Source: Herbaspirillum autotrophicum
GTDB taxonomy: Bacteria; Pseudomonadota; Gammaproteobacteria; Burkholderiales; Burkholderiaceae_D
Direction of reading: 5' to 3'
Length of the DNA: 64,000 nt
Assembly (NCBI RefSeq): GCF_001189915.1
Contig: NZ_LFLS01000025.1
Location: 1 to 64,000, forward strand
This document shows, in pieces, positions 33,988 to 52,098 of the stretch. Position 1 is the first letter of the stretch; each line of letters opens with the position of its first letter. A program made the position numbers and the translations under genes. The notes below the pieces were generated by a model. The model searched no databases. It worked only from the letters and a program-made list of their open reading frames with translations, and was not told where the DNA came from.

Positions 33988-34086
33988 TGTTGACGATTAG
34001 TAGTTCGTAAGAAAATCCAGAAGTTGATGAGATAAAATCAATAGTGGCGAGATAATTCGGAGAGGATAAATCACTGGAAGACAATG
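33988..34086. repeat. Left (lipA-proximal) transposon end with three contiguous TnsB-type repeats and a fourth weaker one
   Basis: Terminal TGTTGACG is followed by repeats at 33996-34016, 34017-34038 (CCAGAAGTTGATGAGATAAA) and 34039-34057. A weaker copy lies at about 34068-34085. All point inward and share the core AG-TTG-TGAGA-AAAT with the right end. Head-to-tail packing without gaps resembles Tn7R, although the tns operon lies at the other end. Confidence 0.85.
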
Positions 34087-34167
34087 GTGACTCTTGATTC
34101 TTTCCCTTCCGAAGAGTGAAAACTCTTGGCGGATTTTTGTCATTTTCCGCCTAGGGCTGGACCGCAG

Positions 34168-35841
34168 ATGGCAGATGCAAATGAATTGATGATCGCCGCC
34201 TTGCCCTCCGATGGGCATGGCTGGCGTATCGACTGGTTCGGGGAGATTGCCTTCCCGAACCGCATGATTCGACGTAAGCAGCCATCCGTTCTCCTTCATC
34301 TGTCTCGTGTGATCGATAAACGTTACCGTGAAGACCACTCGGTTCTTCTCAATCCTGAATCCACATTCGTCGCCAAGCAACGCAAGGTATGGGTTTCCGT
34401 AGGAACCCTGCCGTTACTTCGTATTGGAGATATCTGGCGAGATGGTCGGTTGGACACTGCATCTGACTATGAGCTTGAGAGCTTCCTCGATTTAGAGATT
34501 AATTCAGAGACCACCAGCTTGATCAAGGCTGGGCTCAACTTGGAAGAGAATGGCTTCTTGCTACCTAGAGGAGAGCATCCTTGGCACATGCAAGCCACAC
34601 AATCTTACTGCACGATGATTGACTTGCCTGGTGAGCGCAGATTGATCATTCCTTGTATTGAATTGATTCGCTTCTATTTCGGATCCTCAAGCAACTTGCT
34701 GACCAAGTTGTTTCTACCGCCGCTCAGCCGAGAAGCGTTGTATAGCAAAGCCCATTTCAGCAAGATCAATGGCCAGCTGTCATTGGCGTTAGCGGAAGGG
34801 ATATCAGGTGCATCAGCTGCTGACATCGGCCGTATGCATTTAGATTCCGATGCTTGGCGGACCGCTGTCAATGTGGGCACATCGCTTCTTAAAGCATCGG
34901 TGTCACGTCAGGAAATATATCCCCAGGCGCATTTCCCATTCGAAGGCGTCACCACACTGACAGCATCTGGAAAGTGGCTGTCATTTTCTAGCCAGCCACG
35001 GGCAACGTTCCTCGTGTATAGCCTTCGCTCATGTTCGCATCCATTCCCATTCCGCTCTCTGAGATACAACGTGACAACTCGGCGCATTGCGCAGACGCAG
35101 AGTGCGCAAAATGGAACACCAGTACCACGGATAGTTAAACCGCCGCGACGTTCATCAGATCAACAACTTGTGGAAAAAGACGCATCTGAGAAATTCACGC
35201 GGCAGGCTCATCCAATATGGGTAGTACAGCGCTTTACGGATCTGACAACAAAGACAATCTGGAAAAACCGTGTTTTGTCAGTACCATCCACCGGAGCAGT
35301 CATTGTCACGACGACGGCAAACGACACTAACTCAGCAGTTGGAGATACGGGATCAGATCGACGCGTACGTTCAGTTGATTTGCAAATCAAGACGGAAAAA
35401 GAGACTGAATTTCCCGTACCAGGCTTTCTTAAAGATATCGTCGATGAGTTGAAAACTTTGAGGGACTCCAAAGTTGAGCTCTTAACTGAGAGCGACGAAG
35501 ACGGTTGGACGATCCCTATCTTGGTGTCAACGGATGAAGAAGGTGAAATCGATTTGAACCTGTTCGTTGAGATCGGGAACAATCAATTGCGAGAGAGAAG
35601 AGTCGCGGCCTTCTCTGTCATCAACGAAAAAACGAATATTGTTCTCGTGACGATCGAATTAGATCCTGTCTATTCGAAATCCTATCCAACAGATGGCGAG
35701 TCTAGCTTGCAAGATACGTTGCGGCGAGCAGCGGCAGATTTTATTTCTAGGAATCGTGACACTAAGATCGAAAAAATCGGCGAGGGAGCTGCATATTTCG
35801 GTGTTTCGTGGTCATCCAGTTCGAGTGGAAATGAACACTAG
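34168..35841 (+). CDS. TnsE-like transposon protein (tentative)
   Basis: A 557-residue protein encoded 180 bp inside the left end. I see a layout that recalls Tn7 TnsE: an N-terminal GHGWRIDWFG (residues 16-25), a middle IPCIELIRFYFG (about 161-172), a region ending FLVYSLRSCSHPFPF (about 285-299), then a polar linker. The last 130 residues have an amphipathic helix (FLKDIVDELKTL) and the strand pair ERRVAAFSVINEKTNIVLVTIELD. In Tn7, TnsE directs insertion into replicating or conjugating DNA. The similarity is judged from memory, so the call is tentative. A TTG at 34126 would add 14 residues; the ATG at 34168 with AGGG upstream fits better. It is alone on its strand and followed by an exonuclease gene. 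Confidence 0.5.
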   Translation: MADANELMIAALPSDGHGWRIDWFGEIAFPNRMIRRKQPSVLLHLSRVIDKRYREDHSVLLNPESTFVAKQRKVWVSVGTLPLLRIGDIWRDGRLDTASDYELESFLDLEINSETTSLIKAGLNLEENGFLLPRGEHPWHMQATQSYCTMIDLPGERRLIIPCIELIRFYFGSSSNLLTKLFLPPLSREALYSKAHFSKINGQLSLALAEGISGASAADIGRMHLDSDAWRTAVNVGTSLLKASVSRQEIYPQAHFPFEGVTTLTASGKWLSFSSQPRATFLVYSLRSCSHPFPFRSLRYNVTTRRIAQTQSAQNGTPVPRIVKPPRRSSDQQLVEKDASEKFTRQAHPIWVVQRFTDLTTKTIWKNRVLSVPSTGAVIVTTTANDTNSAVGDTGSDRRVRSVDLQIKTEKETEFPVPGFLKDIVDELKTLRDSKVELLTESDEDGWTIPILVSTDEEGEIDLNLFVEIGNNQLRERRVAAFSVINEKTNIVLVTIELDPVYSKSYPTDGESSLQDTLRRAAADFISRNRDTKIEKIGEGAAYFGVSWSSSSSGNEH

Positions 35842-35990
35842 TCGAACAACGAGGAGCATCGTACGCAGCATTGTCGTAGACTCAGTGGTGTAAGGCCGGA
35901 CAAGGATGGCCGTGGCCCGTAACTGATGCCTCGTAACGATGAAAACATCCTGATGCATGTGATGCAAAACATATTTCACGAGAGATACTC

Positions 35991-36461
35991 TTGAAAATTT
36001 TCTTGGATACTGAATTTACAGACTTTGTGCGACCGCATCTGATTAGCATCGGTATGGCGGCGGATTCAGATGATGAATTCTATGCGGAGATACCTTATCC
36101 TTACGACGAATGCAGTGATTTCGTGCGAGAAGTGGTCCTTCCATTGTTGGGTAAATTTCCTGATGCTACCTATTCGAAGCAAGAACTGGCGGAGAAACTA
36201 AGGTCCTGGTTGGATGTGCTCAATGCGGCACACGGGACTTTAGAAATCTGCTTCGATTTTCAGACCGATTGGGATTTGTTCATTGACGCTTTGGACTACC
36301 AAGTACCGAAGTGGTGTGTGCAGAAGCAAGTCAATCGCAACATCAATGAATTGCTTTACTATGAATACCATAAGAAAAACGCCCTTCCGGAGCATCATGC
36401 TCTCTATGACGCGAGAGCAAATCGGTTTGCTTATCGAGAGCGGCCAGATGTAGTTGATTGA
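35991..36461 (+). CDS. DEDDh 3'-5' exonuclease/exoribonuclease (Rv2179c-like)
   Basis: A 156-residue protein starting MKIFLDTEFTDF. The acidic pair D6/E8, a middle aspartate at D93 (or D95, FQTDWDLF) and H135/H136 with D140 (HHALYDA) complete the DEDDh set used for two-metal 3'-5' hydrolysis. The short length and the DTEF opening match the Rv2179c-like exoribonuclease family rather than DnaQ. It uses a TTG start preceded by GAGAGA. It lies 150 bp after the TnsE-like gene and in the same direction. It may be a cargo defence nuclease or a single-gene passenger. Confidence 0.75.
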   Translation: MKIFLDTEFTDFVRPHLISIGMAADSDDEFYAEIPYPYDECSDFVREVVLPLLGKFPDATYSKQELAEKLRSWLDVLNAAHGTLEICFDFQTDWDLFIDALDYQVPKWCVQKQVNRNINELLYYEYHKKNALPEHHALYDARANRFAYRERPDVVD

Positions 36462-36488
36462 AATCAATTTTCCTAATTGGTTTTCTAA

Positions 36489-36504
36489 ATCGCAATATTG
36501 CGAT
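36489..36504. promoter_or_regulatory. Perfect 16-bp palindrome downstream of the exonuclease
   Basis: ATCGCAATATTGCGAT is fully self-complementary, 28 bp after the exonuclease stop. It looks like a protein-binding site rather than a terminator since there is no loop or T-run. The binding protein is unknown. Confidence 0.45.
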
Positions 36505-36840
36505 ACCGGAGTCGTTGCATGGCAAGTCAACGTATCGGACGGACTGGGTTATATGCATTGGTTTGGAGCGAACTCCTATCCCAGTTTGCGAATCGTTTTA
36601 ATATTTCTGATGCGATGCTTGAGAAAATATTCATAAGCCGGGATTAAGTTATTGAACTAAGCGACAGTCTCCCTCGCGTTCCATAATTCTGGCGGGTTGA
36701 GGGCCGGAATATTGAGGGCCAGCTAAATGAAGTCCTAGGCGATCCCGGCTAGAGGCGATAAGTATTTCTCTTTCAGCGCAATCATCCGGAGAGCGGTTTA
36801 CCTGTGACGAGAATGTTGTCGCGTCGTTTTAGATTTTGAC

Positions 36841-36863
36841 CACTGATATTTAAAATATCAGTG
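36841..36863. promoter_or_regulatory. Operator-like dyad upstream of ietA
   Basis: CACTGATATT and AATATCAGTG form a perfect 10-bp inverted repeat with a 3-base centre. It lies 94 bp before ietA. TTGACC abuts its left side, and TAATAT follows at 36865-36870. The spacing between these boxes (23 bp) is too long for an ordinary sigma-70 promoter, so the dyad may be an activator or repressor site. This is inference. Confidence 0.6.
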
Positions 36864-36956
36864 TTAATATAGCAGTAACCCTTTTTAGGCGTTAAACTTC
36901 AAGAAGAAATCTGATCAAGCTCGTCGTCCGGGGTTGACGAGTCCAAGGAAAAGAAA

Positions 36957-37955
36957 ATGGCTAACGGTGATCAAATCAAGGCGATGCTACGCGCCTACAA
37001 AGACGCAGACGAGAATCAGTTCATGACTCTCGCACTGCAGATTGCTGCGCGAGAAGCCAAGGCTGGCCATGGGAAGCTGGCCGGAGAGATCCGAGAGCTG
37101 GTCGATAATGTCAAAGCCCGCAGCCCTGAAGTCATCATCAGCGCAACTCGCAAGCCGACTCCGATTCGCCAACCCAAGGGGGAGTTGGCAGATCTGGTTC
37201 ATGTAACCTATCCTGAAATACAGCTCGACGACCTCATTCTTGAGTCTGATACGCGTGAGCGGCTGGACAGAGTCCTCCGCGAGCAGCGTCAGTCTGCTCT
37301 CTTGGCTGAACATGGCCTTGAAGCACGCCGGAAGGTCCTACTTATCGGCCCACCGGGCACGGGAAAAACAATGACCGCTGCGGCATTGGCCTGCGCCCTG
37401 TCGCTTCCTTTATTTACTCTGCGGCTGGACAGCCTGTTCACCCGCTACATGGGTGAAGCCACGGCCAAGCTGCGCCTGATTTTCGACAGCATCCAACAGG
37501 TGCGTGGCGTTTATCTCTTCGATGAGTTTGACGCCATTGGGCAGCAGCGCGCGACGAACAACGATATCGGCGAACTACGCCGGATCCTGAATGCCTTCCT
37601 GCAGATGGTCGAGCAAGACAGCTCTCAAAGCATCATCGTCGCTGCCACGAACCATCCGAAGATTCTAGACGAAGCGCTCTTCCGGCGATTCGACGATATT
37701 CTCCAATTCGCGCTTCCAACAGCCGATGAGTTCATCGAACTGATGCGTCGGCGCACTCCCAAGAAATATCGCTCTTTAGAATGGGATTTGCTCGGACCTT
37801 TGTCGGCTGGCCTCAGCTATGCCGATGGCAAGCGTGCCTATGACGACGCCCTGAAAGAAATCATCGGTAACGGTGGCCGCGCTATCACAATCGAAGCTCT
37901 GATCAAAGCAATCAAACAACGCATTAAAGATAAGAAGACCTTTACCAACAATTAA
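36957..37955 (+). CDS. ietA: IetA-like AAA+ ATPase (defence/plasmid stability pair with a subtilase)
   Basis: A 332-residue AAA+ ATPase. Walker A GPPGTGKT lies at about residues 131-138, Walker B VYLFDEFDAIG near 184-194, sensor 1 IIVAATNHPK near 225, and the arginine-finger context LFRRFDD follows. The N-terminal 100 residues are a small helical domain. It is followed 19 bp later by a subtilase, the gene order of IetA-IetS, first described as a Ti-plasmid stability locus and later reported as an anti-phage system. The ATPase likely controls or delivers substrates to the protease. GGAAAAG lies just before the ATG. Confidence 0.85.
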   Translation: MANGDQIKAMLRAYKDADENQFMTLALQIAAREAKAGHGKLAGEIRELVDNVKARSPEVIISATRKPTPIRQPKGELADLVHVTYPEIQLDDLILESDTRERLDRVLREQRQSALLAEHGLEARRKVLLIGPPGTGKTMTAAALACALSLPLFTLRLDSLFTRYMGEATAKLRLIFDSIQQVRGVYLFDEFDAIGQQRATNNDIGELRRILNAFLQMVEQDSSQSIIVAATNHPKILDEALFRRFDDILQFALPTADEFIELMRRRTPKKYRSLEWDLLGPLSAGLSYADGKRAYDDALKEIIGNGGRAITIEALIKAIKQRIKDKKTFTNN

Positions 37956-37974: not shown

Positions 37975-40515
37975 ATGGCTGGGGAAATAGAACGTCTGCC
38001 ACATCTGTGGCTGGGGGATCGTTCGACCATCGAACAAGGATATCGTCGACGCCCCGGAGGCCCGATGGGTGGCCTAGAGGTTGCAAATGTGGATCGGCAG
38101 ACGCACGGGAGGCGGCTCAAGCGTTCCTTGGAAGACATCTTGCCTATCTTGGTGGAGCGACGGAGTGAGATTGCCGCTCAACAGATCCCTACGTCGCCCG
38201 GGATTATCTTGGAGTTTGAAAGTTTTCCTGAGTTGGAACTGGCGCTGCCGCGACTTGACTCTGGCCGTGGCGATATTCAATTGCTGAACGTGCGCGAGGC
38301 GAACAATAAAATGTACGCTACCTGTTTTGTTCCTGACGGCAAGATCAACTCGTTGATCACGAAGATCGACGACTATCTCAATCGCGAGACAGATAAGACT
38401 CGCGAACCAAGAAACAAGGAGTTAGCGCAAAGTATTCAGTCCATCGGGGTCGCAGCGTTCGAAGCGCTATGGACCGACATCGGTCCAATTCCGGCCGACA
38501 ATGAGCTGCTCTGGTGGGAGCTTTGGCTGCGTTCCGAGAACTTGACGCCACAAACCGTATATAACCGGTTCCACTACGCTGCCGAGCGCTTTGAGATACA
38601 CCTTGCTGTCCAGCGGCTTGAGTTTCCCGAACGAGTGGTCGTGCATGCTCGCTGCACAAAAGCACAACTGGCCCGCTCGTTCATTATCCTGAACATGATT
38701 GCCGAGATCCGGCGCGCAGACGAGCCTCTTGTCGTTCCAGAGCGCATGACCGTGCATGAGCAAGATGCAATCATCGAAGCCCTTGAGGATCAGATCACTG
38801 GGGACAGCAACGTTGTTGTCTCCGTGCTTGATACTGGAATTTTGAGAACCCATCCGCTGCTGGAGCCTGCGCTGAATGTAGCCGACATGCACACCGTTAA
38901 TGCCAACTGGGGCACAGCTGACCATGAGGGTCACGGTACGAAGATGGCTGGCTTGGCCCTCTATGGATGTCTTCACACCGCCGCAGTACAGCCTGAGGCA
39001 GAACCGGTCGAACACCGGCTCGAATCAGTGAAGATCATACCGCCTCCCAATTTCGAGGTAGAGAGAGATCATGAGGTGCTCGGCAAGGTGATTGCGCAAG
39101 CAGTTGCACGCTGCGAAATTTCGGCTCCCCGCCGTCGTCGGGTCATTTGCAAAGCCATTACCACTACTTCGCACGAATCTGGAGAACCGTCAGCTTATTC
39201 GGCAGCAATCGATCAATTAGCATTCGGCCATTCTGTCGTTGATGGGAACGACCCCACGAATCGGCGCCTCTTCGCCATCAGTGCCGGCAATGTAGCGCCT
39301 GACGACAGGTGGTTGACGTATCCAGCTTCCAACCGAAATTACATGGTTGAACAGCCTGCCCAAGCGTGGAATGCGCTAACCATTGGAGCCTTCACTGATA
39401 AAATTTCACTCCCAGCATCGCCCGACTACGCAGGTTGGCAGGCCCTGGCGGGACGGGGTGACTTGAGTCCTTTCAGTTCCACATCCCACGGTTGGAGCCG
39501 TGAGTGGCCGATAAAACCTGAGGTGTTGTTTGAGGGGGGAAATCTGGCCGTTGATCCTACAGGCACAGAGACCAGCCAACCTCATACATTACAAATGCTG
39601 ACCACAAGCAGAGTGGGGGCACATCGTCCAACGGTGACGTTCAACATGACGAGCGCTGCCACCGCTTTGGCCTCCCGTTTAGCGGCCCAGATCATGGTGG
39701 CATACCCAGATGCCTGGCCCGAAACCGTTCGAGGTCTGATTGTTCACCACGCGAGTTGGACGCAAGCACAGAAGAACCGCTATCTCACCGACAACTCGCA
39801 GGCCACCAAGCGCAAGATGTTGCAGACATGTGGTTTTGGCGTCGTGTCGCCAGAAAAAGCCCTGCATAGCGTTCGCGATGGCGTGACGATAATGGTACAG
39901 GCTACGCTGCAGCCCTACAAGGTTGAAAAATCCCGAGGCAAGATGAACAAGCTGCGTCTGTTCGAACTTCCTTGGCCGAAAGACGTACTGCTAGGCCTCG
40001 GTGAACAGACGGTCCATCTGAAAGTCACGCTATCCTATTTCGTTGAGCCCAGCCCGGGTAAGCGCGGTTGGGAAAAGAAATACCGCTACGCATCGCATGG
40101 ACTCAGGTTCACCCTGCGCCGATGGGATGAAAGTGCACAAGACTTCAATCACCGTATCAATCATGCGCTGTTGGACGACGCGGAGGAAATCCCTGAGTCC
40201 AATCAAGATACTGGTTGGACTTTGGGTGCCAAACTCCAAACGTTCGGCTCAGTCCACTCTGATACATGGACTGGTACCGCTGCTGAACTGGCAACACGAA
40301 ACATTCTCGGGGTCTATCCAGTGATTGGTTGGTGGCGAGAACGGCTCAAGCTGAAGCGCGCGCTGACGAATGCCCGCTTTGCGCTGATCTTTTCATTGGA
40401 GGCTCCAGGCGCTGATCTGGATTTGTACGAGCAACTGCAACAACAAATCGACGTCGGACCGCTTGATCTACAAGGCTTGATGGAAGGAGACCTGGAACTT
40501 GGCAACCAAGAGTAA
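37975..40515 (+). CDS. ietS: IetS-like subtilisin-family (S8) serine protease
   Basis: An 846-residue protein, much longer than secreted subtilisins and lacking a signal peptide, so cytoplasmic. About 275 N-terminal residues precede the S8 domain. The catalytic triad can be placed: D286 in SVLDTGILRTHPL, H320 in DHEGHGTKMAG and S560 in FNMTSAATALASRLAA. A beta-rich C-terminal region of about 250 residues follows. Pairing with an AAA ATPase is diagnostic of ietAS. The last codons overlap the next gene's start by 17 bases and contain that gene's Shine-Dalgarno. The trigger and proteolytic target are unknown. Confidence 0.87.
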   Translation: MAGEIERLPHLWLGDRSTIEQGYRRRPGGPMGGLEVANVDRQTHGRRLKRSLEDILPILVERRSEIAAQQIPTSPGIILEFESFPELELALPRLDSGRGDIQLLNVREANNKMYATCFVPDGKINSLITKIDDYLNRETDKTREPRNKELAQSIQSIGVAAFEALWTDIGPIPADNELLWWELWLRSENLTPQTVYNRFHYAAERFEIHLAVQRLEFPERVVVHARCTKAQLARSFIILNMIAEIRRADEPLVVPERMTVHEQDAIIEALEDQITGDSNVVVSVLDTGILRTHPLLEPALNVADMHTVNANWGTADHEGHGTKMAGLALYGCLHTAAVQPEAEPVEHRLESVKIIPPPNFEVERDHEVLGKVIAQAVARCEISAPRRRRVICKAITTTSHESGEPSAYSAAIDQLAFGHSVVDGNDPTNRRLFAISAGNVAPDDRWLTYPASNRNYMVEQPAQAWNALTIGAFTDKISLPASPDYAGWQALAGRGDLSPFSSTSHGWSREWPIKPEVLFEGGNLAVDPTGTETSQPHTLQMLTTSRVGAHRPTVTFNMTSAATALASRLAAQIMVAYPDAWPETVRGLIVHHASWTQAQKNRYLTDNSQATKRKMLQTCGFGVVSPEKALHSVRDGVTIMVQATLQPYKVEKSRGKMNKLRLFELPWPKDVLLGLGEQTVHLKVTLSYFVEPSPGKRGWEKKYRYASHGLRFTLRRWDESAQDFNHRINHALLDDAEEIPESNQDTGWTLGAKLQTFGSVHSDTWTGTAAELATRNILGVYPVIGWWRERLKLKRALTNARFALIFSLEAPGADLDLYEQLQQQIDVGPLDLQGLMEGDLELGNQE

Positions 40516-41973: not shown

Positions 41974-42146
41974 GCTTAATCCGAGTATAAATACTGTTTA
42001 TATATACAGATTAATGAAGCATCAAAGTGAGCGAGATAATCAGGACATAACTTCACACAGCTAGCTGATCAAGACAACAACGATTCCGATTGCATTTAGG
42101 TTACGTCTATTTCATTATGGCAAATAACCTAATGGACGGAGACGTG

Positions 42147-44312
42147 ATGATTGTGGGTAGCGACAGGCAGTTTGATATCGTAGACCGTTACAGCGAAGTA
42201 GCTCCATTTTTGACGCAGGTGGTGCAAGCAGCAGATGCCCATCGTAACGCACTTGGTTTTTTTCCGGCAAGTGTGATTGAAGGTTTCGCAAGGCAAGAGC
42301 GCTTGCTTGTTCTTACTGAAAAGCGCGGTGTCGAGCAGTGTTACGCCGGACACTTGCTTTTTCGGCCACATTTTCCGCGGGCGCACATCATGCAGATGTT
42401 GATTCTTCAGGAATACCGACGATTAGGACTTGCCGGTAGGCTCGTCGATCATCTTAAGGCGCAATCGACACAACAAGGCTTCATTTCGATCTATGCGCGG
42501 GTGGCGGAAGATTTGGTCGAATCGAATCAATTTTGGCATCGACAAGAATTTTATGTGCAACGCGTCGAACGTGGCGGAGTGCAACGCAATCGACAAATTC
42601 TTGTTCGATGTCATGAATTGGCGACGCCTCAACTTTTCCCGACCAGTGGTATTGACGTAAATAACCCCCTAGGGCTTGTGAACTCCGCAGCGGACGTTCT
42701 GCCGTTGTTCTTACTTGATTTAAATGTGTTGTTTGATGTTGCTCCTCGCCGCCGCCTACACGATGGCGCTGCAAGCTTGTTCCAAGCGGAGAGGTCGAAT
42801 TTTTTTCGGCTTGCGATCAGCACGGAGGTTCGTGAGGAATTGCGTAGAACTGCGCACGTCGGACGTACAGATCCGATGGAAGCTTATATCAATATCTACC
42901 CCTCATTTCCTTTGTCGGATGGCGAAGAAACAGCGGTCATACTGGAACAACTGGCGACACTTGTCTTCCCAGATAGATTCGTCGAGGGCAAGCTAAGTGC
43001 AAATGACTACTCCGATCTCCGTCATGTCGCGACAGTTATTGAACATGACCTCGCTGGACTAATTACGAACGACGGTGCCATTCTTACCGCAGCTCCCGCT
43101 ATCAAGTCAAAGTATGGCATCGAGGTTGTTTCGCCTGCTGCATTCAAGCTCGATGGACTCGACCCGGCGGCGAACACAGCGTTCAATACGCCGGAGGCCG
43201 CTACACTAACACTGCTCGAGGTCTCACGTGGAGACGATCCGTCTATTAGGACGCTTTTGTCCAAGGTAGGTCTTTCCGGATCCTCGATGGCGGCAGGCTG
43301 GCTTCCTATTGATGCTACGGGTCGTATTGCGACGTGTTGTGCCGTCTGGAGTGGTGCTATACCTATCGGATACGCGACGTGGGGGGCTAAAGGGGCAACC
43401 GGGATTACGACAGTTCGTATCGCGGTTGATGAGTCAAGTTCGCAGTCTCTCAGCGCTACACGAATACTTTTGATGTATTTGTTAGAGAAAATCACAGCTC
43501 AGGATTCGCAGAATATCAAGCTCGAACTTCCGCAAAACCAGTCTCAGGTACGCGAGTTAGCTACAGGCTTTGGATTTCGTGGAACGCCCGATCAGCAATG
43601 TTTGACCAAGCTTGTTCTTGGCAGCGTGCTGACAGCGAAAACTTGGAATTCGGTCCAATCCAAATTGGCAGCAAAAGATGGGCTGAAATTGCCGGATACC
43701 ATGCCTCATTTTCGAAATATCGATCAACAAATTCAAATTTTTACGCCCAATGGGAATCAAAGGCATGTAGCGTTGGATGAACTCGAAACACTTTTATCGC
43801 CGGCGCTTTTTTGCTTGCCGGGAAGGCCTGCAGTAATGACGCCGATTCAGAGTGACTTTGCCGCTGAACTACTAGGGAGTTCACCGCAAGCATCATTGCT
43901 ACCGCGTTTGACGGCTTCGCTATATCATGATCGCCACTATTTAAGCGGTCCTCGAACATTGCGGCATTTTAAGAGAGGGACCTTGATCCTGTTTTATGAA
44001 TCAACAAAAAATCATGGTCGCGCTGCAGTGATCGCGATTGCACGAGTGCGCGAAGCATATCTCCGGCCGGTCGACGCGGATGTTACAGATCTTGAACACT
44101 CCGTACTTACGGCGGAAAATTTGGAGCGAATCGGGAAGTCGAAAATGAAAACTGTGACAGTATTCGACAATATTTTTATATTGCCGCGACCTGTTCCATT
44201 GGCGTCGCTTCGACGTATGGGCTGTGGTGAATCGAATCAGTTGATTACCACACGTCCACTAACGGATCCACAATTGCAAGAAATTTTATCTGAGGCTTTT
44301 GAACGTGATTAA
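42147..44312 (+). CDS. Multidomain GNAT-PIN-GNAT-PUA-like protein, coupled to an ASCH protein
   Basis: A 721-residue protein with an unusual domain chain. Residues about 1-165 form a GNAT acetyltransferase fold (MLILQEYRRLGLAGRLVDHL acetyl-CoA loop). Residues about 185-335 form a PIN-type RNase fold with aspartates at D191 (LLDLNVLFD), an E near 230 (STEVREEL) and DD in SDLRHVATVIEHDLAGLITND. A second, weaker GNAT-like unit (about 345-505) precedes a C-terminal PUA/ASCH-like region (GRAAVIAIARVREAYL near residue 630). The combination suggests recognition, cleavage and acetylation of RNA or a nucleotide-bound target. The ATG at 42147 has GGAG upstream; a TTG 19 codons earlier is possible. The next gene overlaps the stop. 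Confidence 0.7.
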   Translation: MIVGSDRQFDIVDRYSEVAPFLTQVVQAADAHRNALGFFPASVIEGFARQERLLVLTEKRGVEQCYAGHLLFRPHFPRAHIMQMLILQEYRRLGLAGRLVDHLKAQSTQQGFISIYARVAEDLVESNQFWHRQEFYVQRVERGGVQRNRQILVRCHELATPQLFPTSGIDVNNPLGLVNSAADVLPLFLLDLNVLFDVAPRRRLHDGAASLFQAERSNFFRLAISTEVREELRRTAHVGRTDPMEAYINIYPSFPLSDGEETAVILEQLATLVFPDRFVEGKLSANDYSDLRHVATVIEHDLAGLITNDGAILTAAPAIKSKYGIEVVSPAAFKLDGLDPAANTAFNTPEAATLTLLEVSRGDDPSIRTLLSKVGLSGSSMAAGWLPIDATGRIATCCAVWSGAIPIGYATWGAKGATGITTVRIAVDESSSQSLSATRILLMYLLEKITAQDSQNIKLELPQNQSQVRELATGFGFRGTPDQQCLTKLVLGSVLTAKTWNSVQSKLAAKDGLKLPDTMPHFRNIDQQIQIFTPNGNQRHVALDELETLLSPALFCLPGRPAVMTPIQSDFAAELLGSSPQASLLPRLTASLYHDRHYLSGPRTLRHFKRGTLILFYESTKNHGRAAVIAIARVREAYLRPVDADVTDLEHSVLTAENLERIGKSKMKTVTVFDNIFILPRPVPLASLRRMGCGESNQLITTRPLTDPQLQEILSEAFERD

Positions 44313-44802
44313 CCCAGAACACATTTTGATTTCGCTGGCACCACGCCATGCAGGGAACATTTTTTCGGGGCGAAAGCAGATTGAACTGCGGCGTCGTTCT
44401 ATGAATGTTGTTCCAGGAACAATCGTATGGGTATACGTTACCTTACCTATTGGATCAATTGTTGGCTGTGCAAAAATCGCGGCCGTGCATAAGTCCACGC
44501 CGAATGCATTGTGGAGAAGATTTGGAGCAGTATCGGGCTTAACGAGGGGCGAATTTTTGGAATATCTCGACGGATTGGAAGAGGGTGTCGTACTGGTGCT
44601 TGAAGACACAGAGATGCTGGATCAACCCTTGTCCTTGGACGCGCTTCGCGATATAGCCGACGGTTTTAATCCGCCTCAATTCTTTATACGGCTTGGAGAG
44701 GAACATCCCTTATTTGATACATTCTCGGGCTCTTCGCCACAGTTCAGATCAAAATTTGAAGGCGTTGCGCCAATTCTTAATCAAATACAGGCAATGTGTT
44801 GA
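44305..44802 (+). CDS. ASCH domain protein
   Basis: A 165-residue PUA-superfamily ASCH protein. It opens INPEHILISLAPRHAGNIF and then SGRKQIELRRR, the standard ASCH RNA-binding entry, followed by the beta-barrel VPGTIVWVYVTLPIGSIVGCAKI. The GTG at 44305 is chosen because GAGG lies 9 bases upstream; it overlaps the previous stop by 8 bases (GTGATTAA), so the two products are made together and probably act together. ASCH proteins bind RNA or modified nucleosides; some are nucleases or amidohydrolases. It may be an antitoxin or sensor for the PIN/GNAT partner. The gene converges on tniQ. Confidence 0.8.
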   Translation: MINPEHILISLAPRHAGNIFSGRKQIELRRRSMNVVPGTIVWVYVTLPIGSIVGCAKIAAVHKSTPNALWRRFGAVSGLTRGEFLEYLDGLEEGVVLVLEDTEMLDQPLSLDALRDIADGFNPPQFFIRLGEEHPLFDTFSGSSPQFRSKFEGVAPILNQIQAMC

Positions 44803-44967: not shown

Positions 44968-45981
44968 TTAAGATTGATCGCGCCAATTTGAAAATTTCTC
45001 AACAATCGAACTGTACCAACTTGGCGGATCAATAAAATCCTTCATCAGTACGTTGTATCGAACCGCACGTGCTCGCCAAGCGGCCTCTAATCTAAGATCG
45101 ATATCAGAAAGCAGCCAAGCTGCTAATTGGGCCAAGTGGTGACGTTCCATAGTCGGGCGCATCTCGAAAGAAATATGCCCTTTAGTAAGAGAAATATCCT
45201 GAAATCCGATCTGACTCAAAACAAATTCCCTAAGTCTGACATGCTTGTATCGCGAGGTCATAAGCCTGCATAGCTGATGCATGACTGCAAATTGGCCAAA
45301 ATCCCAATTGCTGTTCGACACGGTTGCGTCTAGTGCACGACTAGCATCGAGCAATAGTTCGGATGCCTGCCTGTCATATGAAATAGCCACTACATTTGGG
45401 GCATCTCGCAAATCGAATGCGCACGCATGACAATACGAAACAGGCGTAGTCTCCAGCACATCCAGGCGCGCAATATCAATACGGTGAACGGCAACTGCAA
45501 CACCGCAGGCAGGGCAGCGGTCAAGAAGCATAGTTCCGTGCCGTGTACAGACAGTATTGAATGCAACTCGCCAGCGTTTTCTGAAGTAGGGAATCTGATC
45601 CTCGGTCAAACATGCTGGGCAGAACTGCAGCCCATGTCCCTCGTGCTTACGGTGATACAACTTCAGTGCGAGCATCCATTGCAACATGCCGGACAACCTG
45701 AATTTTCTGTAGAGTAGCCCTTCGTAAGCCCGCAACGTAGTATTCAATGTAACGTCCGGATGCGTTCCGGTTCTATTGCTTAACTTGTCCAACAGCCATG
45801 GCGGTGCCAGGCGATCAATGTCTCGATTCCAAACTTGTCTCTGATTGCCATAAATCAGATTACAAAACGTCTGCACCTTCAAACCGTGCCCATGCGCCAG
45901 ACGTACAAGCCAGCAGGAAAGCAATTCGTCAGGCAAGGGCTTATAGTGAATCGGCCATAACGATGACGTTGGACTCGCCAT
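44968..45981 (-). CDS. tniQ: TniQ/TnsD-family target-selection protein
   Basis: A 337-residue protein, last gene of the tns operon, starting 5 bases after the tnsC stop. The N-terminal domain has PLPDELLSCWLVRLAHGHGL, the typical TniQ entry. Two zinc-ribbon pairs follow: CPACL near residue 118 with CTRH...CPACG up to about 160, then a YCHAC. The long C-terminal DNA-binding extension of Tn7 TnsD is shorter here. TniQ bridges the DNA target and TnsC. Whether it reads the lipA end, or is a short adaptor used by another selector, cannot be decided from sequence. Confidence 0.9.
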   Translation of the reverse strand: MASPTSSLWPIHYKPLPDELLSCWLVRLAHGHGLKVQTFCNLIYGNQRQVWNRDIDRLAPPWLLDKLSNRTGTHPDVTLNTTLRAYEGLLYRKFRLSGMLQWMLALKLYHRKHEGHGLQFCPACLTEDQIPYFRKRWRVAFNTVCTRHGTMLLDRCPACGVAVAVHRIDIARLDVLETTPVSYCHACAFDLRDAPNVVAISYDRQASELLLDASRALDATVSNSNWDFGQFAVMHQLCRLMTSRYKHVRLREFVLSQIGFQDISLTKGHISFEMRPTMERHHLAQLAAWLLSDIDLRLEAAWRARAVRYNVLMKDFIDPPSWYSSIVEKFSNWRDQS

Positions 45982-45986: not shown

Positions 45987-46886
45987 TCAGAGACGCTGGT
46001 ATTGCTTACGCTTTGACGGCGGCACCCAAGGCAAGGAATTGATCCGATCCAGAGTAATATGCTCTACCTTGCTACGAATCGCATCCACAGCTAGTTCTTT
46101 GACCAGATCACACATGTCGCCTAGCGTCCCCTCGCTGCGCATGTGAATGGCGAGCATCATGTTTGGGTTTTTGAGGTTCGAAGGGCGCTTAAGTGGTGTG
46201 CGCAATTCCAGTGTTGCCAGCAGTGAGCCGAACTCATTGTCTGCTCTCCATATTGGCAGATGTTCCGGAGTGAAACGACTGGACATTTGCGGATCGGTGT
46301 TAAAGGCGTTGTAGGCATCCTCGATACCCGCTGCTACCATGGTGACCATCGTTTCGTTGCCGAGACTTTTGAGTGCGTTACGAAATTCTTGCTGTCGGTT
46401 CAGACTGCCGGCGATTAGATGATGGATTTCATCCACGATCAGCATATGCACTTCCATTTGACGGAATAAGCGCTTTATCTGGGAATATTTCTCCGACACC
46501 GATGCAGTCGGTTTATATGGCGTCATCAGTACATCAAGGATACGAGTATAAAAATCTGAAATATCCGGCTTGGGCGGTGCTTCTACCATCACTACCGGGC
46601 AGATCGTTACTTCGCCTTCCGGATGCGTTTCGGGCAGGTGGAGTGACAGAAAACGTTTCAGGATCGAGGTTTTTCCATTGAATGACGGTGCAACCAGCAG
46701 CATATTTGGCATGCGGGTGATCTTGGGATAAGCCAACAGATCTTCCATGCGCGCCAAAATGCGCTTGGCATCTTTGTAGCCCAGCCACGAGCCCTCGCGG
46801 ATCGAAAAAATTCGTACCTCGTCGCTACGCTCCGCCAAGGCGCGGGCCGTATCGTTCAAGTGTGGATAGGGATTATCAGTAGTCAT
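45987..46886 (-). CDS. tnsC: TnsC/TniB-family AAA+ transposition regulator
   Basis: A 299-residue AAA+ ATPase that forms filaments on target DNA and links target selector to transposase. Walker A reads APSFNGKTS (about residues 66-74) and Walker B MLIVDEIHHL (about 151-160). This is the TniB pattern found in Tn5053-like and short Tn7-like elements rather than full-length Tn7 TnsC. Its ATG overlaps the tnsB stop (TGATG). Sensor and arginine residues appear intact, suggesting activity. Confidence 0.93.
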   Translation of the reverse strand: MTTDNPYPHLNDTARALAERSDEVRIFSIREGSWLGYKDAKRILARMEDLLAYPKITRMPNMLLVAPSFNGKTSILKRFLSLHLPETHPEGEVTICPVVMVEAPPKPDISDFYTRILDVLMTPYKPTASVSEKYSQIKRLFRQMEVHMLIVDEIHHLIAGSLNRQQEFRNALKSLGNETMVTMVAAGIEDAYNAFNTDPQMSSRFTPEHLPIWRADNEFGSLLATLELRTPLKRPSNLKNPNMMLAIHMRSEGTLGDMCDLVKELAVDAIRSKVEHITLDRINSLPWVPPSKRKQYQRL

Positions 46887-48802
46887 CAGTCGTCGTCATT
46901 CAGCGGCTGAACCGCATCTGGGTCGTAGCCACGCACAGCGGTAGGCAGCGCAGAAGGCGTCGGGTTGCCGACCTTGGGCAACTCTATTGCCTTGCCCTTG
47001 CGAGCTTTCTCATGTTCAGTTCTACGTTGCTGTGCCCGTCGTGCCGCTTTAGTCTTTTCTGCGGCTTCTGCCTCCACCGCACGTTGTTCGTTGAGCAGAG
47101 CAAATACTGCCTTCTCGTTTTCGTGTGGAATGCCTTTTTCGTCGGCCCGCCGATGCGCTTCACGGAGCTCCCAGATGCTGACTGGCGGCAGACTAGTATC
47201 GCGGTAGGGAATGGCAAAATAGCGGCTGGCGATCTCATCGAAAAAATACAACTGACTGATGTCCCGTGGGTCACGGTGAAACAGGAATTTGCGGCGATGG
47301 CGCGGAAATTCAGGGTGAGGGGTATTGATCCACGGACGCAGCACATCGTGATAATAGTGGACGTCATCGATCAGTACGCCGTAATTCTGGACCGTACGTT
47401 CGATGAATGGCATGAAATCGATACGCAGCTTCTCCTCGTCCAGGCGTCGCGCCGGTAATCCGCGACCTGGTTTCCCCTTGGTGCCTAGCAATCCCTCTCG
47501 CCACTTGGTGAGCGGAGTGGTGCCGATGCCAGCGTGTACCTTGCGATGGTATCGCGCGAAAAACAGCACCAGCCATTTTTCCAACTCGCTGAAGGTCATG
47601 CATGCATTGCCTTCCGAGTCGTATACTCCTTTTTCGTCCGGTCCTGAAAATGTTGCACCCTTGACCGTTTTGAGTCCTTCCGACACGGTCCCCATTAGCC
47701 GCTCAATGTGCGCGCCGTAGCGTGGCTTCTTTACCGGGCGCAAATGAAGATCGATATCGTATTCGTTACAGGCTACCTTCAGCATATCGCCTCGAAATTC
47801 GCGCGCGTTATCCATGTGGAGTATGCCCATTACACCCCAGCACGGCCAATCCGCAGAAGTAACACCCAATCTGGTCATCCATTGTTCCTTCGGCATAATT
47901 GCATGGGAGATACACATGCCCGCTGACATGGCGGATGGTGCGTCGAGAGATAGATACATGCCCAGGCAAACGCGACTGTTTACGTCAATGGCCAGGGTGA
48001 TCCATGCCCTGCGAATCGATTTGCGATATACATCGTCCACGATAATGACTGGCAGTAGTGTGTGGTCGATTTGAACCAACGCCAGCGGCCAATCGGTATC
48101 CGGAATGACACCCTTGATTGGATCAAATTGATCATGCGCTGCCGCTTCACCTTTTCGACGGGCGATGCGCTCACGTCCATTGGTACGCTCAATACGCGCT
48201 CGAATGGTATTCAGCGCTGGCAATCGGAGTTGTGCATTGGAACATAGGCGTCTGATTTCTTCGACGGTCGATGCTATCGATGCGTTTTGCTCCGTATCGT
48301 GGAAATTTTCCAGACAATCCGCGATGATGGCTTCGACCTCGGGGGACAGCCTGCTTTGCCCCCTGCCGCCTCTAAGACCGGAGGTGGGTAATAGCGAGGA
48401 TAGTAATCCGGTCTGGCGAAACGCAGCGACCCATCGATAGATGGTTGGCCGGCTGACGCCTGCTGCGACCGCGATTTTGTCGGCTTTTCCTCCGGCGCGC
48501 TGGTGGGACGGTGCGGCGAGTAACGGTTCGATGTGACGACGACGCTCTTCAGCAATTTGCCAATCCGCATCTGATATTTCCCATAAATTGGGTTCCGTGC
48601 GCGATTGTGTAGACGGTAGAGATTCGATTTTCTTTGGAGGACCAATGTCGCCAATCTTCAGCAGCACCTTCTCGCCAGACGCCACTTCTTTAGCCAAGAC
48701 TAAGTTAATGTCTGCCAGTGCCAAAATGATGTACTCACGGCCGTTGTCGGAGACCGTCGCGCCTTCTTTAAGCCATAGCTGCGTAGGTTCTTTTTTGCTC
48801 AT
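46886..48802 (-). CDS. tnsB: TnsB/TniA-family DDE transposase
   Basis: A 638-residue RNase H-fold transposase that binds the end repeats and joins 3' ends to the target. An N-terminal HTH (ADKIAVAAGVSRPTIYRWVAAF) and linker precede the rve catalytic core. The triad is D246 (VQIDHTLLP), D331 (HMDNAREFR) and E367 (GAHIERLMG), a D-84-D-35-E arrangement. A basic C-terminal tail with KAARRAQQRR is expected to contact TnsC. Earlier in-frame starts exist, but the ATG at 48802 overlaps the tnsA stop as ATGA and is preferred. Confidence 0.95.
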   Translation of the reverse strand: MSKKEPTQLWLKEGATVSDNGREYIILALADINLVLAKEVASGEKVLLKIGDIGPPKKIESLPSTQSRTEPNLWEISDADWQIAEERRRHIEPLLAAPSHQRAGGKADKIAVAAGVSRPTIYRWVAAFRQTGLLSSLLPTSGLRGGRGQSRLSPEVEAIIADCLENFHDTEQNASIASTVEEIRRLCSNAQLRLPALNTIRARIERTNGRERIARRKGEAAAHDQFDPIKGVIPDTDWPLALVQIDHTLLPVIIVDDVYRKSIRRAWITLAIDVNSRVCLGMYLSLDAPSAMSAGMCISHAIMPKEQWMTRLGVTSADWPCWGVMGILHMDNAREFRGDMLKVACNEYDIDLHLRPVKKPRYGAHIERLMGTVSEGLKTVKGATFSGPDEKGVYDSEGNACMTFSELEKWLVLFFARYHRKVHAGIGTTPLTKWREGLLGTKGKPGRGLPARRLDEEKLRIDFMPFIERTVQNYGVLIDDVHYYHDVLRPWINTPHPEFPRHRRKFLFHRDPRDISQLYFFDEIASRYFAIPYRDTSLPPVSIWELREAHRRADEKGIPHENEKAVFALLNEQRAVEAEAAEKTKAARRAQQRRTEHEKARKGKAIELPKVGNPTPSALPTAVRGYDPDAVQPLNDDD

Positions 48803-49449
48803 GATGCAAGATGGACAAGAATATCGTCGTCGAATGCGACATCCAGATTGGTAATCAGTCGCCGCGTAAGTATCAGATTCCAGATGACGGGAAGCCAATA
48901 AAGCTTTTCGTCGTCGTTGGCGGCTATGCCTCGGAGTAAACTTTGTAACGTTGTACCACCATCTCTGTCTACCAATTGAATGACTTGCGCGTAGTCTTTA
49001 TTTGCTGGTTCGACGTTGCGGTACTCCCTCAAAAATTTGAGATTTGTCAAGCGCGGTGTGCGAATCTCCTTTTCTGTCGTTGTGCGAAATTCCCAGCCAC
49101 GCTCAGCGACATACTGATCTGCAGCTGCAAACTTCGGAGCATACTTCTCGGCGTTCCTCTTTAAATCGCTTGAGTGCTTGATTTCGGTAAGCAATGGTGG
49201 ACGGGTATGGCCGGTTTCCGAGTCCGCACGAAAATGTACCAGTACATCGGGTGTATATCCTCTGGCAATGCCAAGTATCGGAATGTTGACGGGTTGCTCC
49301 TCGAACCTTTCGACTTCGTCGTCGAAATCCAGAAGTAGCAGGTACTCTTTTTCCAATATAGATTCGAAGCCACCCATTTTTCCATTCTTCCGGCTGGCAA
49401 AACTTCCTGTCACGGACAGATGATTTTTTGGGATCTTACGAACTGGCAT
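48799..49449 (-). CDS. tnsA: TnsA heteromeric transposase endonuclease subunit
   Basis: A 216-residue endonuclease that cuts the 5' strands, making excision cut-and-paste. The nuclease domain has GGFESILEKEYLLLL (E29/E33), YTPDVLV (D68) and LLTEIKH (E89-I-K91), the E-D-xK set of the restriction-enzyme fold. A helical C-terminal domain that would contact TnsB follows. The ATG at 49449 has GGAAGG upstream and replaces a longer reading with 28 extra residues. It is 70 bp after the primase-helicase gene and overlaps tnsB. Confidence 0.94.
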   Translation of the reverse strand: MPVRKIPKNHLSVTGSFASRKNGKMGGFESILEKEYLLLLDFDDEVERFEEQPVNIPILGIARGYTPDVLVHFRADSETGHTRPPLLTEIKHSSDLKRNAEKYAPKFAAADQYVAERGWEFRTTTEKEIRTPRLTNLKFLREYRNVEPANKDYAQVIQLVDRDGGTTLQSLLRGIAANDDEKLYWLPVIWNLILTRRLITNLDVAFDDDILVHLAS

Positions 49450-49519
49450 AACAAATACCTTCCGTATAAAAAACCACTTTATTCGATATAACCATTGCGC
49501 AAAGTCGGCTGCGCAATTT

Positions 49520-51907
49520 TCATGCGCGTCCAAAGCTAAGCTGTTGCTGATCGACTTCTACCTTATATCCCATCGCTTTGTATCCACGCTGCCGTTTCTC
49601 CCACATCCGGGAGAGTTGCGGGTGATCCAATTCCGCGTAATCGTGAATCAAAATATCTGTCTTGTCTGCATGGTCACGATGTAAGCGGCCCGCATACTGT
49701 TGTAAGGTTCCCGCCCAGGAGATTGGGAGCGTCAATATCAACGTATCCAGCGGAGCATGGTCAAATCCTTCGCCGACCAACTGGGCGCTGGCCAATAATA
49801 TGTGTGGCGCGTCCGGCGGCAGTTCGGCCAACGCCTTGATAACTAATTGTCGTTCTTTTGCTTTCATACGGCCATGGAGCATAAAGCAGGGGTAATCGAC
49901 ATTTGTGAAATAGGCGTTTAACAAATCGAGATGTTCGGTACGCTTGGTCAAGAGCAATACTTTTCTCCCATCATTGAGTGCGCTAATTGCATCTGCAACA
50001 ATCCGTGCATTTCTGTCTCTGTCCTCGGCCAGGAGCCGGATGACCTCTTGAATGCTCGCATGTGGCGGGATAGTTGGCGTCGGGAGATGATGAACTCGTA
50101 CCGTCAGTTGTTCTGGAACATGTGCCGGTCGTTGCGCGACGTGTCTGACTGGGCCGCACTGCATGAACATGATAGGGTGATGGCCATTACTCCGAATCGG
50201 TGTTGCGCTGAGGCCAAGTACATAATGCGAATTGGCCTGTTTCAAAACACCTTCGAAAGTTTGCGCGGATAAATGGTGGGCTTCATCGACGATGATCTGC
50301 CCATATCGACCGAATAGTTCAGGCAGATCTTCCCGGCGTGCCAAGCTTTGGATAACGGCAATGTCTAGCAATCCGGTCGCTTTTTTCTTACCCGCGCCGA
50401 TCAACCCGATTTTTTGCTCATCGAGTACAACAAAAGTTCCAAGGCGTTCTTGCCATTGCCGCATGAGATCCGCGCGATGAACGATCACTAGTGTGCTGAC
50501 CTTCCTGCGAGCGATGATCGCTGCCGCAGTCACTGTTTTCCCGAATGCTGTCGGCGCGACCAACATGCCAAAATCGTGCGGCAGAACGGCCTCTAATGCC
50601 TCTTGCTGGTCTGGTCGTAATACACCTTGAAACGAGGCGTTTAAGACGCAGCCTTTTGAGCGAGCGTCATCCAGCCGCAAATCGATTTTGTTGGCGGTAA
50701 GTAGCGATCTGACATCGTTCATGCAGCCGCGCGGTAGTGCCATGTGCTTTGGATGATTTTCGGCACGACCGATGACGCGTGGTTTATCCCATGCGGACAT
50801 ACGCATGGCCTGTGCTTTGTAGAAATCGGGATTCTGGAATGCTGCTAACCGGACCAAGCGATTCATCAGCGTTTGCGGCAGCCCTGCCTTTTCGATGAAT
50901 ATCTGGCCGGCAATCGTGGCTATTACGGCTCTTGGCATAACGCCCGTAAGTTGGATATTGGGCTTGGCAGGTGCTATCCATGGCGTATCCGCATTCTCGT
51001 CTGGTACTTCGGCGTAAGCGATATCCAGAGGGTGCCGATCACCGACCAATTTGTTAAGTATCGCTTCGATATGCACTTGCGGAAGCGGCTTGATACTTTC
51101 CAAGAATATCCATTGATCGGGCAATGGCTGCAGATTGGCATCAACAAAAACGCTACGGCCAAGGTCGCGAGGGTGCTTTTGCAATGGTAACGCGATCAGA
51201 TTGCCAAAGCCGCCCTTTGGCATTGTGTCCTGATTGGGAAATAGCCGATCATACGATTCCAACTTCAGTTGCCGGGTACGAGCACAAGTTGCACTTATCA
51301 ATGCGGTGCCGAGCCGTCTGGCATCACGGGCCGGGGTTGGATTCGCAAAAAATAGCCACAAATGCGCACCCTCGCCGGACCGCGAAATCTCCAGCGCTGC
51401 CGGGAGGTCGTTTTCTATGCAGGTTTGCAGTACCGCCTTGGCGTCTTCGCGCCAATCTGCATCATCGAAATCGATGGCTAGGAAATAACAGCGGTCATCG
51501 GCAAGTAGAGGGTAAACACCGGCAGTAATTTTGCCTTTGAGGTGACTGGAGATGACCTCGTTGGTGACTGGCGCGAAGAGACTTTTCGTGCATTCGCTGC
51601 ACTTGATGACAGGTTTTTGGCATACGCCATTGCGCCACTCGTTGGCGCAGACAGGCGAATATCCTGGCTTACCTGTCTTTTTGCTTTCCCAGCGTACAGG
51701 GTAGACATCGTCTCTTCCATGAAAAAGGCGTCGGAAAAGCTTGATCTTCGCCTCCGGAGATAAGATGCTAGCGACGGTAGAGGGGGTATTGGCGGTTGCG
51801 TAAACTGTATTTAGTTGTGGAATCGCAATTCCGTGCTTGGAAATGAGTGCTCGGAGCATGTCATTTTCAGCCCGCAACCGAAAGAGTTCAGCATCGACCT
51901 TTGACAT
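49520..51907 (-). CDS. Archaeo-eukaryotic primase-SF2 helicase fusion (TOTE conflict-system type), first gene of the tns operon
   Basis: A 795-residue protein. A short N-terminal coiled coil (ELFRLRAENDMLRALI) is followed by LFRRLFHGRDDVYPVRW and a Cys pair (CSEC). The primase core has motif I FLAIDFDD (D146, D148, D149) and motif II SGEGAHLW (H182). The C-terminal half is an SF2 helicase with Walker A APTAFGKT (near 450-457), DEAH at VDEAHHLSAQ (about 540) and a late motif VI QYAGRLHRDH. This fusion is known from systems named TOTE. Location upstream of tnsA in the same direction, 100 bp from the end repeats, implies expression with the transposase, possibly repressed by TnsB. It may aid gap repair, defend the element, or regulate transposition. 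Confidence 0.88.
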   Translation of the reverse strand: MSKVDAELFRLRAENDMLRALISKHGIAIPQLNTVYATANTPSTVASILSPEAKIKLFRRLFHGRDDVYPVRWESKKTGKPGYSPVCANEWRNGVCQKPVIKCSECTKSLFAPVTNEVISSHLKGKITAGVYPLLADDRCYFLAIDFDDADWREDAKAVLQTCIENDLPAALEISRSGEGAHLWLFFANPTPARDARRLGTALISATCARTRQLKLESYDRLFPNQDTMPKGGFGNLIALPLQKHPRDLGRSVFVDANLQPLPDQWIFLESIKPLPQVHIEAILNKLVGDRHPLDIAYAEVPDENADTPWIAPAKPNIQLTGVMPRAVIATIAGQIFIEKAGLPQTLMNRLVRLAAFQNPDFYKAQAMRMSAWDKPRVIGRAENHPKHMALPRGCMNDVRSLLTANKIDLRLDDARSKGCVLNASFQGVLRPDQQEALEAVLPHDFGMLVAPTAFGKTVTAAAIIARRKVSTLVIVHRADLMRQWQERLGTFVVLDEQKIGLIGAGKKKATGLLDIAVIQSLARREDLPELFGRYGQIIVDEAHHLSAQTFEGVLKQANSHYVLGLSATPIRSNGHHPIMFMQCGPVRHVAQRPAHVPEQLTVRVHHLPTPTIPPHASIQEVIRLLAEDRDRNARIVADAISALNDGRKVLLLTKRTEHLDLLNAYFTNVDYPCFMLHGRMKAKERQLVIKALAELPPDAPHILLASAQLVGEGFDHAPLDTLILTLPISWAGTLQQYAGRLHRDHADKTDILIHDYAELDHPQLSRMWEKRQRGYKAMGYKVEVDQQQLSFGRA

Positions 51908-52003
51908 ACGAGGCTCGTTTTGCGAAGATAAGTTCGGCGATCCACCGGTAGTAACTGCATTGCCCCAATGGCCGCCTCCTAGAGTTGGTGCAACAAGCTT
52001 AGA

Positions 52004-52098
52004 ATTGTCTTAACAACTTCTGATATTTGTCTCACCAGCTTCTGGACAAATATACTTCAAAACAGCTAATTTGTCTCATGAGCTACTGATCGTTCACA
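52004..52098. repeat. Right (tns-proximal) transposon end with three spaced TnsB-type repeats
   Basis: Read on the plus strand, copies lie at 52004-52023, 52025-52045 (ATTTGTCTCACCAGCTTCTG) and 52069-52090, all pointing inward, before the terminal CGTTCACA. The outermost copy is spaced from the others. The copies share the core with the left end in inverse orientation. They overlap the likely promoter region of the primase-helicase/tns operon. Confidence 0.87.

Follow-up and report, generated by a model that had tools for sequence, protein, structure and literature searches.

A Tn7-like transposon at the lipA gene and a probable lipA-homing branch related to Tn6022

Introduction

TniA, TniB and TniQ make up the core of the Tn5053 family, and the TnsE pathway of Tn7 is directed towards replicating conjugal plasmids. 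The sites of Tn7-type elements named in the accessible text of a review comprise glmS, yhiN, comM, parE, tRNA genes and plasmid resolution sites (PMC11406308). As described in the accessible part of another source, Tn6022 elements bring together TnsA, TniA/TnsB, TniB/TnsC and a small TniQ, and carry, close to their left end, remote TnsE genes (PMC10293859). In this regard, the same part of that source considers many partnerless TniQs too short for target selection and suggests that selectors may act in trans (PMC10293859).

The stretch of DNA analysed here, hereafter the window, spans 64,000 nucleotides of Herbaspirillum autotrophicum and contains a Tn7-like element inserted at lipA. By membership the element is closest to the Tn6022 group, with which it shares the set of four core proteins, a probable TnsE homolog near the left end (c1) and the presence, in a genome from the same host family (G228), of a c1 relative adjoining a truncated comM, yet it departs from two features of the group. 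The target of Tn6022 is comM and not lipA, and Tn6022 has TnsF in an operon with TniQ, whereas no TnsF was recognised, as judged by gene content, in the lipA elements; in the window the gene after tniQ is on the opposite strand, and the complete element of Massilia frigida shows no TnsF candidate by gene content. Moreover, Tn6022 disrupts its target gene, while the lipA branch keeps it open. With Tn7 the element has in common a 5-bp duplication, TGT/ACA tips and insertion in a set orientation close to the 3′ terminus of a conserved gene, which is glmS for Tn7 in the accessible text of PMC11406308. Tn7, however, has a TnsD that reads glmS, whereas the window has a single 337-aa TniQ and no large TnsD; insertion at lipA falls inside the reading frame or where it ends, and the similarity to TnsE is visible in profile comparison only. 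The Tn5053 family, too, has one TniQ and is not known to use any further targeting pathway, according to the same accessible text (PMC11406308), but the window's element has in addition TnsA and a TnsE-like gene, and its site lies at a chromosomal gene rather than at the resolution site of a plasmid. Tn6230 (yhiN) and the elements targeting parE or tRNA genes likewise use a chromosomal attachment site (PMC11406308, accessible text) and are set apart, by their descriptions, by the site itself. On the other hand, CRISPR-associated transposons are defined by a Cas effector and a guide array, neither of which was found here.

Among the papers listed by our searches and in the main texts covered, we met no description of lipA as a site of Tn7-type elements; the words "lipA" and "lipoyl" are absent from the main texts of PMC10293859, PMC8649781 and PMC10702557, and "lipA" gave no match in the main text of PMC11406308. 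The gene would join the chromosomal sites known for Tn7-type elements. Altogether, with a probability that we put at about three in four, the island belongs to a branch of Tn7-like transposons that homes to lipA and is related to Tn6022, with TniQ as the putative reader of the site and defence-like genes as cargo.

The transposon and its borders

The element occupies positions 33988..52098 of the window (18,111 bp; features in Table 1). Its left tip, TGTTGACGATTAGTAG, begins at 33988 and its right tip, TGTGAACGATCAGTAG on the complement strand, finishes at 52098; the two are identical in 18 of their first 24 bases (P ~4e-7 for one fixed pair of 24-mers under equal base frequencies), and a perfect 5-bp duplication, GCTGA, stands directly outside both. 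TGT/ACA tips with a 5-bp duplication, a feature of Tn7-like elements, are likewise found in the elements of M. frigida and Gallionella described below. Both ends of the window's element also carry arrays of ~20-bp repeats that resemble TnsB sites, another Tn7-like trait. When the whole window is ranked against the repeat consensus, the top four sites (0, 0, 2 and 3 mismatches) all fall within the two ends, while the repeat at 33998, with 5 mismatches, is level with two sites outside the element and the weak third left-end repeat has 9; as the consensus was built from these same ends, the ranking is descriptive. The left end is present as a single copy in this genome. Left ends have stops early in all frames, with a mean longest frame of 9.8 codons vs 18.0 (SD 1.5) in a Markov null, for which no selection is claimed because these ends are related to one another and similar repeats occur in the right end too.

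Table 1. Positions of the target gene, ends and genes of the transposon in the window
Feature	Position	Strand	Remarks
lipA (lipoyl synthase), target gene, frame open	32920..33987	+	TGA stop within left GCTGA copy
Target-site duplication GCTGA, left copy	33983..33987	.	
Left end: tip TGTTGACGAT, putative TnsB-type repeats	33988..34057	+	33998-34017, 34018-34037, weak third ~34038-34057
c1, left-end gene, 557 aa, probable remote TnsE homolog	34168..35841	+	no Pfam/NCBIfam family
c2, RNase AS-like	35991..36461	+	far under NCBIfam cut-off
IetA-like AAA ATPase	36957..37955	+	PADLOC defence model
IetS-like subtilase	37975..40515	+	PADLOC defence model
Tyrosine-recombinase-like protein, 324 aa	40499..41473	+	
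GNAT/PIN protein, PDC-M11A defence candidate	42090..44312	+	PADLOC
ASCH-like protein, PDC-M11B defence candidate	44299..44802	+	PADLOC
TniQ, 337 aa, most likely the (putative) lipA selector	44968..45981	-	
TniB/TnsC AAA+ ATPase	45987..46886	-	
TniA/TnsB DDE transposase	46886..48898	-	homolog matches start ~30 codons into ORF
TnsA endonuclease	48799..49533	-	homolog matches start ~28 codons into ORF
AEP-TOTE primase/SF2 helicase, accessory	49520..51907	-	between tnsA and right end
Right end: tip TGTGAACGAT, putative TnsB-type repeats	52003..52098	-	52003-52022, 52025-52044, 52069-52088
Target-site duplication GCTGA, right copy	52099..52103	.	

All the proteins of a Tn7-like core are encoded, namely TnsA, the DDE transposase TnsB, the AAA+ protein TnsC and TniQ. 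What we take to be the motif residues of these families (E, PD and EIK in TnsA; D-D-E in QIDHT, MDNA and GAHIE in TniA; GKT and VDE in TniB) are present and nearly invariant among the three or four related proteins aligned. An earlier, sequence-only reading of this DNA had claimed a Tn7-like transposon with exact borders, a tip match of 18 in 24 bases with inward repeats in both ends and a core that looked intact, and on all three it was right; what it had missed is that the left end abuts the stop codon of lipA and that insertion at this site recurs in other genomes.

lipA as a recurrent insertion site

Within the genus, the 3′ end of lipA was read in 29 relatives, six of which (G008, G013, G019, G028, G029 and G032) have a Tn7-type end at most 7 bases from the stop codon, and G021 may keep a decayed seventh one. 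Relatives of c1 stand directly after the lipA-site end in G008, G019, G028, G029 (partial) and G032. At the level of the family, the c1 profile matches in 25 of 245 genomes and 11 of 44 genera, and every copy of more than 30 residues and more than about 50% identity adjoins lipA. A scan of GTDB with two peptide patterns gave 42 named loci; lipA lies at most 300 bp upstream of c1 in 33 of them (distance between tblastn matches) and 1.2 to 5.9 kb upstream in three (L147, L145 and L125). The six without lipA upstream of c1 (L138, L141, L143, L146, L149 and L151) include a sequence that starts just 143 bases ahead of the c1 match (L151) and a 57% c1 fragment in a genome whose lipA looks empty (L149). 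The hosts named belong mostly to betaproteobacterial families (Oxalobacteraceae, Comamonadaceae, Sphaerotilaceae, Rhodocyclaceae, Azonexaceae and Gallionellaceae), plus one Aeromonas and one member of the Geobacteraceae.

Genome comparison further shows the site-specific, oriented insertion of Tn7-like elements, with TniQ on the strand opposite to lipA in each of the 13 elements that have both genes on one contig: the window's own, G032, G145, and those of M. frigida, Curvibacter, Glaciimonas, Undibacterium, Herminiimonas RYN_545, Rhodoferax U11-2br, Rhodoferax C4, Polaromonas, Roseateles and Gallionella (TniQ being partial in Undibacterium and Herminiimonas). Rhodoferax U11-2br has an extra TniQ fragment in reverse orientation. 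Tips were sought at 44 loci, 34 of them with an SSYHA[DE] motif, by a search limited to 12-40 bp past the motif and with reference tips drawn from these same loci; 31 of the 34 gave a tip, all at 23-32 bp past the YHAD codons of LipA and 15 at exactly 26 bp, the calls at L115, L130 and L144 scoring just 10-11 of 16. Among the three loci left uncalled, L120 has a tip at 45 bp. The offset is 27 bp in the window, where the native lipA stop is kept, and 26 bp by hand count in Gallionella, and in 22 of the 31 loci the lipA frame, as it now stands, terminates within the element, with tails such as VNNQ or VNAQ. Given that the tip is mostly 26 bp (23-32, one 45) past the YHAD codons, insertion takes place in the last codons, at the stop or just after it, and LipA stays open because either its own stop survives, as in the window, or the transposon tip supplies a short tail and a stop. 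A tip that closes the reading frame of its target is an unusual way of sparing a core gene. As judged from these comparisons, the lipA branch appears to work like Tn7, using the end of a conserved gene at a near-fixed distance and in one orientation.

Just ahead of the insertion point are the codons of the RSSY motif. In the accessible part of a preprint (PMC13232139), this conserved catalytic motif of LipA donates a ligand to the enzyme's auxiliary iron-sulfur cluster, and lipoyl formation requires both the arginine and the second serine of the motif. The 3′ DNA of lipA is accordingly under strong constraint.

Two further complete elements were found at lipA. The one of M. frigida (L118/L100) measures 11,015 bp, with GTGGC on both sides, and changes the deduced native LipA tail QAHNAGVAISA to QAHNAGVAVNAQ; in a search of 17 genomes, its own included, four congeners (G165, G204, G140 and G174) showed the empty site, with the native tail and a single GTGGC. 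The element of Gallionella STA_52 measures 23,653 bp (G557:C2:124792-148444), lies directly after lipA and has GTAAT on both sides, and a second ACA-GTAAT occurs internally with no matching tip. Its left-end slot holds a second TniQ-family protein in place of the TnsE homolog (L251, L252 and L275), and no c1 was detectable by hmmsearch among the ORFs of 128400-148300 (best E 0.52); the same contig has a 38% TniQ ~80 kb away and a 39% c1 ~28 kb from that TniQ. TnsA, TniA, TniB and TniQ are thus common to the three complete lipA elements, whereas c1 is found in the window and M. frigida but not in Gallionella.

The left-end gene as a probable remote TnsE

The assignment of c1 to TnsE rests on profile comparison, since c1 gave no match to the Pfam model PF18623, which itself matched just one genome among 274 of the class. 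A c1 profile of 34 sequences compared with six TnsE proteins scored 58.6 (probability 89.5%, P 2e-6) with a single 352-column alignment that covers the greater part of either protein. The result depends on the four rows that diverge most, since with the remaining 30 the score was 34.8 and the probability only 11%. As controls, column shuffles reached at most 24.65 (30) and 25.6 (60) and the reversed profile 18.25, and an unrelated TniQ profile also reached 24.65. A search of c1 against solved structures returned nothing (best E 1.1), and among 72,556 plasmid records three weak ones appeared at 27%. As in the Tn6022 group, c1 is located near the left end on the strand opposite to the tns genes, its TnsE homology being one of profile only, and it is probably a remote TnsE of the Tn6022 kind. 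Identities to c1 range from 37 to 80% within 300 bp of lipA vs 28 to 43% elsewhere (the 57% fragment of L149 aside), a wider overlap than for TniQ, and in a tree of moderate support the lipA rows and the other rows interleave.

Which protein reads lipA

In the 12 lipA elements besides the window's own, TniQ is 46-77% identical to the window TniQ (48% in Gallionella), and the TniQ ORFs compared here have 336-364 aa. By comparison, the eight TniQs located elsewhere than at lipA share 29-40% identity with the window TniQ, in three cases over just 165-188 residues. Another six are unplaced, with lipA and tniQ on different contigs (G008 65%, G537 62%, G550 55%, G558 47%, G560 42% and G556 37%); the lipA site is occupied by a Tn7-type end in G008, G537, G550, G556 and G558, and the gap in identity may therefore not be clean, as the 37% TniQ of G556 sits in one of these genomes. 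The TniQ tree is weakly resolved. Since all three complete lipA elements have TniQ, including the one of Gallionella without detectable c1, which carries most weight here, TniQ is their common factor, and the conserved 3′ coding sequence of lipA is most likely read by this small protein. In the Gallionella element, the second TniQ-family protein could be the reader.

By analogy with Tn7, excision of the element and its joining to the target would be the work of TnsA and TniA (TnsB), with TniB (TnsC) coupling these two proteins to a selector. The small TniQ would provide this selection by recognising the 3′ coding sequence of lipA, so that insertion would follow the single orientation and the spacing found by comparison, with LipA kept open by its own stop or by the tail and stop derived from the tip. 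The left-end TnsE homolog would serve a second pathway towards other DNA, and the defence-like genes would ride as cargo. A stronger version of this scheme, which we hold tentatively and at somewhat less than even odds, is that the ~340-aa TniQ alone, with no TnsD-type extension, TnsF or guide RNA, reads the RSSY-encoding DNA, and that the transposon end acts as a spare 3′ coding end giving LipA its tail and stop. If true, Tn7-type target selection would have a minimal mode of a new kind, coupled to a transposon end that closes the gene. In this line, the lipA branch offers a concrete substrate for the question of how partnerless Tn7-like elements with a short TniQ find their site.

Alternatively, lipA might be marked by a factor of the host or one provided in trans, such as another selector or a guide RNA, leaving TniQ with a mere relay function, as proposed in the accessible text of PMC10293859 for short-TniQ elements with no partner. 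This seems unlikely to us, given that the same site is used across several bacterial families, that no Cas effector is found among the proteins of the element (the PADLOC label of CRISPR-associated PrimPol falls on the AEP domain only), and that two complete elements showed no CRISPR-like array and the window's element no Rfam match.

Rather unlikely, too, is a reading of lipA by c1 instead of TniQ, through a relative of TnsE turned into a sequence-specific homing factor. In 33 of 42 loci c1 is found at the end facing lipA, which would fit such a role, as would the short TniQ and the lack of a recognised TnsF-like partner, but relatives of c1 with 37-43% identity are found both at lipA and elsewhere, interleaved in the moderately supported tree, the Gallionella element is at lipA with no detectable c1, and a c1-like protein also stands beside the truncated comM of G228.

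The flanks of the window's element

A query with the two flanks of the element joined was compared with the 34 genomes of the genus, the own one included. Its lipA half was present in 32 of the 33 relatives and its rrf2 half in nine, never together: the two genes are far apart on one contig in G005 and G016 and on separate contigs in seven relatives. The sequence-only reading had predicted an empty site GCTGA-TCAGATAAG, which was not found in the 33 relatives. It had also taken another junction in relatives as a sign against its interpretation, and on paper such a junction exists, since rrf2 is not beside lipA in the nine of 33 relatives in which it was found. An aminotransferase gene directly precedes rrf2 in G016 and lies ~4.5 kb from it in G015, while in the own genome it is on another contig.

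Both the separation of lipA and rrf2 in the nine relatives and the location of this aminotransferase gene would be accounted for if the two junctions came from different events, the right flank having been added by a later rearrangement or an assembly error; but the 5-bp match outside both tips is perfect, with a chance of 1 in 1024, and the genome has one left-end copy only, which make this explanation quite improbable. An older relocation of rrf2 in the own lineage, before the element arrived, is preferred because the duplication is perfect, the junctions of the sister elements are clean and M. frigida has congeners with empty sites. From the perfect GCTGA duplication we infer that lipA and rrf2 were already neighbours at that arrival.

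The notion that the position at lipA reflects coincidence or the inheritance of one old insertion could appeal to the fact that some copies of the element are remnants, yet it is hardly credible and already contradicted by the differing junctions, with variable offsets and duplications (GCTGA, GTGGC, GTAAT), empty sites in the congeners of M. frigida and hosts in several families.

Among genomes in which rrf2 was found, this gene and the adjoining MFS gene (52166..54014) follow lipA only in the window.

Cargo and accessory genes

The interior of the element had been described from sequence as unfamiliar cargo. Its first gene, c1, is probably a TnsE homolog, and several others match the PADLOC models of IetA, IetS and PDC-M11A/B. 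For IetA and IetS the NCBIfam models match under their cut-offs only. The IetA/IetS-like and PDC-M11A/B genes are, by similarity to these models, likely anti-virus cargo, and the lipA branch marks a spot to look for defence cargo in Betaproteobacteria.

As a TnsF candidate, the tyrosine-recombinase-like protein is unsupported, with no relative among the sister-element ORFs compared. The AEP-helicase was likewise rejected as part of the transposition core: of the 30 loci returned, 20 were examined, the own one included and with flanks of at most 1.5 kb each, and among these only the own element and that of M. frigida have tnsA next to the AEP-helicase, while another locus has c1 there. In these two lipA elements, which come from different genera, the AEP-TOTE primase-helicase (77% identical) is placed past tnsA, towards the right end. 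The term "TOTE conflict" gave no literature match.

Relatives of c2 stand beside tnsA in G032 and G008 and ~5 kb past tnsA in G145, with weaker matches in L120, L138, L139 and L252, and none was found in the complete M. frigida element. c2 is a possible core gene, as it recurs, yet its position shifts between elements. RNase AS-like exonucleases occur in or near elements in the window, L048, L049, L102 and L252, possibly as a module with a defence or accessory role. In G032 and Azonexus GS18 the RNase AS-like gene has next to it a metallophosphoesterase-like gene, or a fragment of one, recognised by eye.

Other observations concern single loci. The M. frigida element contains a tandem repeat with a unit of 15-16 bp, CCCCACCGGTGACAA (L118 6935-7211). 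At L143, a clear left tip, TGTGAACAATCAGTAG, is present ~154 bp before c1 and away from lipA, which looks empty in that genome, a possible off-site insertion of the lipA-homing branch. Finally, ~8.9 kb past the left tip of L150 (Herbaspirillum sp. RYN_592), a right tip and GGTGT are followed at once by another tip-like sequence, which suggests tandem insertions at lipA.
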